DNA of 64,000 nucleotides from NCBI GenBank assembly GCA_902787185.1, contig CADAFP010000016.1:1-64000 (forward strand). The letters run 5' to 3'. Source of the stretch: an uncultured Bacteroidales bacterium (GTDB lineage Bacteria; Bacteroidota; Bacteroidia; Bacteroidales; Muribaculaceae). The notes under the pieces were generated by a model, which saw only the letters and a program-made list of their open reading frames with translations, was not told the origin of the DNA and searched no databases. The translations under genes were made by a program, and so were the position numbers. Positions 44,686 through 44,713 of this stretch are shown here, in pieces; positions within the stretch are counted from its first letter, which is position 1, and every line of letters begins with the position of its first letter.

Positions 44686-44713
44686 GTGTAGTTTTTTGAG
44701 TGTGCCGTGCGTC
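44686..44713 (+). promoter_or_regulatory. ECF-sigma-like promoter, site 2
   Basis: GTGTAG at 44686-44691, 18 bases, CGTC at 44710-44713, within GTGTAGTTTT and TGCGTCTAATGGGC. It is placed 33 bases upstream of the 44747 hydrolase start. Confidence 0.65.

Follow-up and report, generated by a model that had tools for sequence, protein, structure and literature searches.

Four promoter-like sites in a Muribaculaceae contig probably belong to an autoregulated ECF sigma regulon of envelope genes

Which factor reads a motif that recurs with unchanged spacing in front of peptidase and membrane protein genes of one Muribaculaceae contig? The window, by which we mean the whole stretch of 64,000 nucleotides that was analysed, contains four exact matches to GTGTAG-N18-CGTC, at 4551-4578 (-), 44686-44713 (+), 55897-55924 (-) and 59550-59577 (-). 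An earlier note on this DNA had listed these sites with their fixed 18-base gap and had proposed that they place secreted peptidases and small membrane proteins under a single ECF sigma. All four are present and exact; three of the positions it gave are correct, while the remaining site starts at 4551 and not at 4548, three bases away. Based on the comparisons below, we consider it very probable that the four sites are promoters of an autoregulated envelope regulon whose sigma factor, ECF1, is encoded outside the window.

In the window, the short form of the motif with one mismatch allowed is weakly enriched over chance (five matches compared to a shuffle mean of 2.35; 8 of 100 shuffles reach five). 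The longer form, GTGTAGTTTT-N12-TGCGTC, is exact at all four sites and is not a likely product of chance: with up to three mismatches it matches five times, a number that none of 100 shuffles attains (shuffle mean 0.39). The fifth match, at 9596-9623 (-), has two mismatches and no downstream block, and we took it as a chance match. Three of the four sites share that block, CGTCTAAYGGGCAAAA, as had been described, and the site at 4551 reads CGTCAAAGGGGTGTAA in its place. The proximity to start codons is also as described, with 39, 33, 62 and 31 nt from CGTC to ATG in the order given above.

The genes behind the sites include a CPBP protease, two M16 peptidases and an alpha/beta hydrolase, in agreement with the earlier descriptions (Table 1). 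A homologue of the hydrolase (62% identity) lies behind the same motif in L280, and in L222 a homologue of the 195-aa small membrane protein lies behind the same motif and is followed by an M16 gene. Elsewhere the window encodes a SEFIR/TIR-domain protein (9701-11158 (+); bSEFIR anti-phage model, E 1.9e-102) within its lowest-GC part (8001-12000, 39%), a second TIR-domain protein (22453-23715 (+); PF13676 8.7e-22, ThsB_TIR 1.1e-06), a SocA/Panacea antitoxin-like domain (7296-8282 (+); PF13274 2.6e-19) and a whole-length match to the candidate defence model PDC-S27 (62157-63587 (-); E 1.1e-194).

Table 1. Putative promoters in the window and the genes that lie behind them
Feature	Position	Strand	Details
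Putative ECF-type promoter, diverged downstream block CGTCAAAGGGGTGTAA	4539..4578	-	core exact; 3 mismatches to extended consensus
Small membrane protein, 183 aa	3960..4511	-	probable relative of candidate anti-sigma membrane domain
Paralogue of 3960..4511 product, 182 aa	3258..3806	-	phmmer E 1.7e-37 to 3960..4511 product
Putative ECF-type promoter	44686..44725	+	-35 GTGTAGTTTTT, -10 TGCGTCTAA, downstream block GGGCAAAA; 0 mismatches to extended consensus
Alpha/beta hydrolase, first of two-gene unit	44747..46159	+	PF12146 1.1e-14; signal peptide-like start judged by eye
CPBP (Rce1-like) membrane protease	46159..47004	+	PF02517 1.1e-20; start overlaps hydrolase stop
Putative ECF-type promoter	55885..55924	-	0 mismatches to extended consensus
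M16 peptidase	53006..55834	-	PF00675 1.4e-21, PF05193 1.8e-33
Putative ECF-type promoter	59538..59577	-	1 mismatch to extended consensus
Small membrane protein, 195 aa, first of two-gene unit	58931..59518	-	no Pfam family above cutoff
Second M16 peptidase	56060..58897	-	PF00675 2.9e-19, PF05193 1.8e-35

The window's own genome (G000; 3.22 Mb, 102 contigs, 81% complete) is that of a gut or rumen bacterium. When we searched it with the extended pattern TGTARTTTTT-N11-TGCGTCTAANGGGYAAAA, allowing up to three mismatches, we found 18 matches as compared to 0 for the reversed pattern that served as control. Shorter patterns gave 8 matches against 1 for the reversed pattern (GTGTAGTT-N16-CGTC) and 18 against 2 (GTGTAGTTTT-N12-TGCGTC, at most two mismatches); the -10/downstream half alone, with three mismatches, was set aside as poorly specific (33 matches, 17 in the control). 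The earlier note had named occurrence within genes at equal frequency as an argument against a promoter, and we found that none of the 18 sites lies wholly inside an ATG-started ORF of at least 150 aa, compared to 77% of random 39-mers from the same loci; for ORFs of at least 100 aa the values are 1 of 18 and 80%, and the ORFs of this comparison include spurious frames. An ORF of at least 85 aa begins 11-101 bp downstream of 16 of the sites. At the other two (C2:132780 and C7:58493) such an ORF lies 324 and 270 bp away, behind ORFs of 82 and 75 aa.

The regulon predicted from these sites extends beyond what the earlier note covered. Its own-genome targets are the ECF1 operon, three M16 peptidases, NfeD-SPFH, NatA-NatB, two CPBP proteases, a DUF805 pair, DUF3667, a hydrolase, a BspA-type repeat protein with dockerin, a TolC-HlyD-ABC ATPase set with another permease (MacB-like by eye), an OMP_b-brl_3 outer-membrane barrel protein, a 232-aa membrane protein upstream of a sub-cutoff M50 match, and several small membrane proteins. 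The barrel gene is preceded by two tandem sites 61 bp apart (L050, G000:C8:8150-8249), one of which has a textbook-like TGTAAC -35.

An exact motif site at G000:C2:130813 lies 21 bp upstream of the gene for ECF1, a 157-aa ECF sigma (G000:C2:130862-131332, equal to L047:4863-5336). ECF1 carries sigma regions 2 and 4 (PF04542 6.9e-14, PF08281 3.9e-10; TIGR02937 3e-28); it scores below the NCBIfam SigW cutoffs (78.8 vs 209 bits and 66.7 vs 243.1) and below that of the PG0214 family (NF058625, 71.2 vs 130 bits). We took the best 80 of 589 ECF1 relatives, picked by protein similarity with the motif ignored, from records labelled Muribaculaceae, Prevotella, Xylanibacter, Segatella, Parabacteroides, Rikenellaceae and others, and searched the 200 bp upstream for TGTARTTTTT-N(8-13)-TGCGTCTAA allowing no more than 3 mismatches over 19 positions. 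The motif is present upstream of 77 of the 80 (39 exact), compared to 3 of 358 other ORFs, which include spurious frames, and 0 of 80 two-mer shuffles; the loci compared are related sequences, and these counts are not independent trials. The spacing between the boxes is 11 in 44 of these promoters and 10 in 33. In one genome (L025, G017:C26) the ECF1 gene matches only from residue 54 onwards in one frame, which reflects a frame break or an assembly error. Taken together, these data suggest that the ECF1 family appears to be positively autoregulated through its own promoter type.

Across 61 genomes of the same genus, the extended pattern gives 179 matches and 0 in the control, with at least one site in 40 of the genomes. 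The 26 genomes with ECF1 (one of them a partial match) have a median of 5 sites and 160 in total, as compared to a median of 0 and a total of 19 in the 35 genomes without it (Mann-Whitney p 8e-11); this correlation is confounded by descent, since relatives of the window's other ECF at 60% identity or more show a similar distribution (22 of 26 ECF1 genomes, 4 of 35 others). Four genomes without ECF1 still have 2-3 sites. At 64 of 73 sites from ten genomes, the 2.6 kb downstream contain, on the same strand, a relative of one of the own-genome reference proteins, and at 9 they do not; the 73 comprise 62 of the 71 sites listed in eight genomes, 10 of 10 in RUG12777 and one in P. distasonis, and the sequences are related. 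Recurrent across genomes are ECF1-partner-M16, NfeD-SPFH, NatAB, DUF805, CPBP and the barrel protein. When the extended pattern was applied to seven genomes, its sole match in X. ruminicola and in P. distasonis was the promoter of the sigma gene itself, and four others had no site; RUG12777 has 10 sites (same coordinates as G009). The exact core with a spacing of 10-11 gave five matches in 4 of 9 genomes (control 1). The cultured relatives tried thus have hardly any sites apart from the one at the sigma gene, which makes the large regulon look like an expansion within the window's own lineage; looser patterns could bring up more sites.

ECF1 has a paralogue in the same genome, ECF2 (63% identical, on contig G000:C40), and the window sites might be read by ECF2 or by both paralogues. 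The ECF2 promoter, TGTGATTTTT-N10-TGCGTCTAACGGGCAAAA, has the same -10 box and downstream block, the sigmas closest to ECF2 have TGTAA promoters in some genomes, and one genome (G019) has three sites and, of these sigmas, an ECF2-like one only (64%). However, the ECF2-type pattern TGTGAYTTTT-N10, with up to three mismatches, has a single match in the own genome, which is ECF2's own promoter, and 27 of the 35 genus genomes without ECF1 encode a sigma 51-71% identical, yet each has at most three sites. We therefore regard a share of ECF2 in reading the window sites as unlikely.

We compared 67 sigmas (65 of the 80 loci and the two own proteins; 15 near-duplicates were omitted without a stated cutoff) with their -35 boxes. 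At the position of ECF1 residue 140, Lys is found in 56 of 57 sigmas with a TGTAR-type -35 and Thr in 7 of 7 with TGTGA, and 3 of the 67 have neither box. The seven TGTGA sigmas form one clade (support 99), so the Thr/TGTGA change counts as one event, and all nine members of the ECF1 clade in the tree have TGTAR-N11. Six loci from other genera of the family (L072-L077) have an AAGGA-type -35, TGAAAGGA in five and TGTAAGGA in one, with CGTCTAA kept, and all six have Ser or Ala at residue 140. Because the -35-reading helix and the -35 box change together, the covariation ties the sigma to the box; it rests on few evolutionary events.

We examined promoter anatomy in 156 distinct sites, from related sequences, that the two boxes alone retrieved with no more than one mismatch. 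Four blocks are conserved: an A/T tract, TGTAGTTTTT, TGCGTCTAA and GGGYAAAA. The tract of A or T lies 13-18 nt before the -35 box and was part of no search pattern, and GGGYAAAA begins one base after TGCGTCTAA. The strength of this downstream block is partly due to selection, because the pattern that fetched some of the loci contained it; the block is also plain at the sigma promoters picked by protein. The first ATG follows CGTC at a median distance of 35 (IQR 27-48; 153 of the 156 sites). Since this distance varies, the downstream block belongs with the promoter and not with the start codon, and we disfavour a translation signal. Other ECF promoters serve as the analogy from which we infer that transcription starts within or adjoining GGGYAAAA. 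The -35 box, TGTAGT, lacks AAC, and TGTAAC occurs at one of the 18 own-genome sites; the -10 box contains CGT, and TGCGTC was in the search pattern but is also seen at sigma promoters chosen by protein alone. An AAC in the -35 box was an early hallmark of ECF promoters, and the definition was later restricted to sigma domains, according to PMC8103513.

Including the downstream block, the conserved length is about 40 bp, to which the A/T tract is added; this is long for an ECF promoter, and the motif could instead bind a classical activator or repressor. We find this quite improbable in view of the two boxes at near-fixed spacing (11 or 10), the CGTC in the -10 box, the position at sigma genes and the covariation of helix and -35 box. 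The proposal that one ECF sigma governs secreted peptidases and small membrane proteins gains support, at the level of sequence, from the motif before ECF1, its presence at 77 of 80 relatives and a -35 box that follows the recognition helix.

The window also has an ECF gene of its own, a second ECF sigma near the PG0214 family, encoded with a 228-aa downstream partner that has no Pfam match above cutoff (47266-48452 (+)). This sigma gene (47266-47769) lies 2.5 kb downstream of one of the sites and its relatives largely co-occur with ECF1, so it could be thought to control them. However, the protein is of a different family (NF058625, 125.4 bits vs a cutoff of 130), the 260 bp upstream of its gene contain no motif, and four ECF1 genomes (G018, G021, G023 and G159) have 4, 1, 4 and 2 sites with no match to it at E<=1e-25, although these assemblies are 85, 87, 62 and 81% complete. 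Given the family and the lack of an upstream motif, it is probably not the regulator, and we rate its control of the sites as highly improbable. Chance or low-complexity T-rich repeats, with which the weak enrichment of the short form would fit, have a negligible claim, since we read the 179 matches against 0 in the genus as refuting chance.

For ECF1, a candidate regulator lies next door. The sigma gene is followed, after 1-106 bp, by an ORF of 140-220 aa in 77 of the 80 loci; in the other three the contig ends. We aligned 58 of the 77 with the two own proteins (60 in all; identity to the first 17-77%). The averaged profile describes a protein of about 200 aa with about four hydrophobic regions after the N-terminus. 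The best-conserved stretch is hydrophilic and covers residues 8-42 (own numbering; 2.42 bits per column), compared to 1.5-1.8 bits where the protein is hydrophobic and 2.1 over its final 20 residues. The zinc motif Hx3Cx2C is present in 0 of 60 partners; not every class I anti-sigma (ASDI) has it, and in class II anti-sigmas (CnrY-like) short N-terminal helices wrap the sigma. Among the Pfam matches listed for the 60 partners (25 of 40 families), we found no known anti-sigma domain and no barrel family of the kind expected for a C-terminal outer-membrane beta-barrel (Reo/Dma type); two of the 60 weakly match RseC_MucC (best E 0.00067). No convincing PDB relative of the candidate was found (best E 0.0078). 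Class I anti-sigmas adjoin 6% of Bacteroidetes ECF sigmas compared to 32% across all phyla, as given in PMC7406223. Gene order and conservation suggest that the partner may bind the sigma, and this multi-TM protein of about 200 aa is likely the anti-sigma of ECF1.

The regulon itself seems to contain relatives of this protein. A single-linkage group of 19 small regulon proteins, which includes the products of 3258-3806 and 3960-4511, aligns as a profile to the candidate anti-sigmas over residues 30-200 (hhalign Prob 97.7, E 2e-12), as compared to Prob 46 at most for nine other target groups, whose scores are lowered by their shallow profiles (1-11 sequences vs 19). A direct single-sequence link from the ECF1 partner to a target protein was seen for L254 only (phmmer E 2e-6). 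The first hydrophobic segment begins at residue 28-49 in the 19 relatives vs 45-61 in the candidate anti-sigmas, and R[QKE]Q-x3-L[KR], a motif chosen after the alignment had been seen, occurs in 33 of 60 candidate anti-sigmas vs 0 of 19 relatives. From the profile alignment and the N-terminal differences, the regulon appears to hold relatives of the sensor membrane domain that lack the conserved N-terminus, and the window's 3258-4511 pair are probably such relatives.

We propose that RNA polymerase carrying ECF1 would read the four window sites, with sigma domain 4 contacting TGTAGTTTTT (-35) and domain 2 contacting TGCGTCTAA (-10). ECF1 would transcribe its own operon, a positive feedback loop, and would also act at as many as about 17 further sites that precede envelope genes. 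The N-terminus of the partner (residues 8-42) may keep the sigma bound at the membrane until it is released by an envelope signal; the multi-TM partner would sense envelope trouble, the sigma would be released and amplify itself, and it would then turn on peptidases, exporters, the membrane-organising NfeD-SPFH and the small membrane proteins. A broader reading, which we offer tentatively and would not ourselves bet on, is that a widespread Bacteroidales ECF family is controlled by a novel type of anti-sigma, in which a multi-TM sensor carries a short, conserved and cytoplasmic segment at its N-terminus, that in one lineage a local self-activating switch became a global envelope regulator, and that copies of the sensor membrane domain without the sigma-binding segment became targets, acting as effectors or as competitors for the membrane signal that damp the response.

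The system is a compact case that brings together a sigma, a promoter code and a candidate regulator whose putative binding segment is defined. It offers natural specificity switches (Lys140 with TGTAR, Thr140 with TGTGA, Ser or Ala140 with AAGGA), and the probable relatives without the N-terminal segment are natural controls. It also suggests an envelope regulon for a rumen and gut lineage; the closest named relatives of this lineage here are assembled genomes, and relatives of the sigma gene are present in the cultured Xylanibacter ruminicola and Parabacteroides distasonis. ECF regulons are of a known kind; in the open-licence literature searched we found no title or abstract describing the ECF1 promoter or sigma, nor this partner type or partner-related target genes.

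The gene sigW is autoregulated and the sigma-W promoter is TGAAAC/CGTA; yqeZ and yuaF are NfeD-like, and yknXYZ is MacB-like. According to PMC3498285, the sigma-W regulon of Bacillus subtilis includes the flotillin operon (yuaF-yuaG/floT), yqeZ-yqfAB and yknWXYZ, and the NfeD-SPFH and TolC-HlyD-ABC genes found here behind an ECF sigma parallel that content. The ECF1 regulon differs in its Gram-negative host, in its promoter and in a sigma that falls outside the SigW family (78.8 vs 209 bits); its additional members are M16 peptidases, an outer-membrane barrel and proteins of the small membrane family. Within the Bacteroidales, EcfO-Reo of Bacteroides/Phocaeicola is likewise an ECF sigma with an adjacent negative regulator and a role in envelope stress; according to PMC9308784 and PMC13114119, however, Reo spans both membranes with a C-terminal beta-barrel, whereas the ECF1 partner is a protein of about 200 aa with some four hydrophobic segments. 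The Dma/Das ECF21 systems of B. thetaiotaomicron are also Bacteroidota pairs of ECF sigma and membrane regulator tied to the envelope, and their anti-sigma is described in PMC13088901 as a dual-membrane protein with a beta-barrel, of which we saw none in the ECF1 partner. SigH-1 and SigW-1 of B. thetaiotaomicron likewise have Bacteroidales ECF regulons that were inferred with promoter motifs; according to PMC12596196, SigW-1 has an associated transmembrane protein, BT1816, and the SigH-1/SigW-1 motif has -30 and -10 elements with TGTT near -10, as compared to TGCGTCTAA here.
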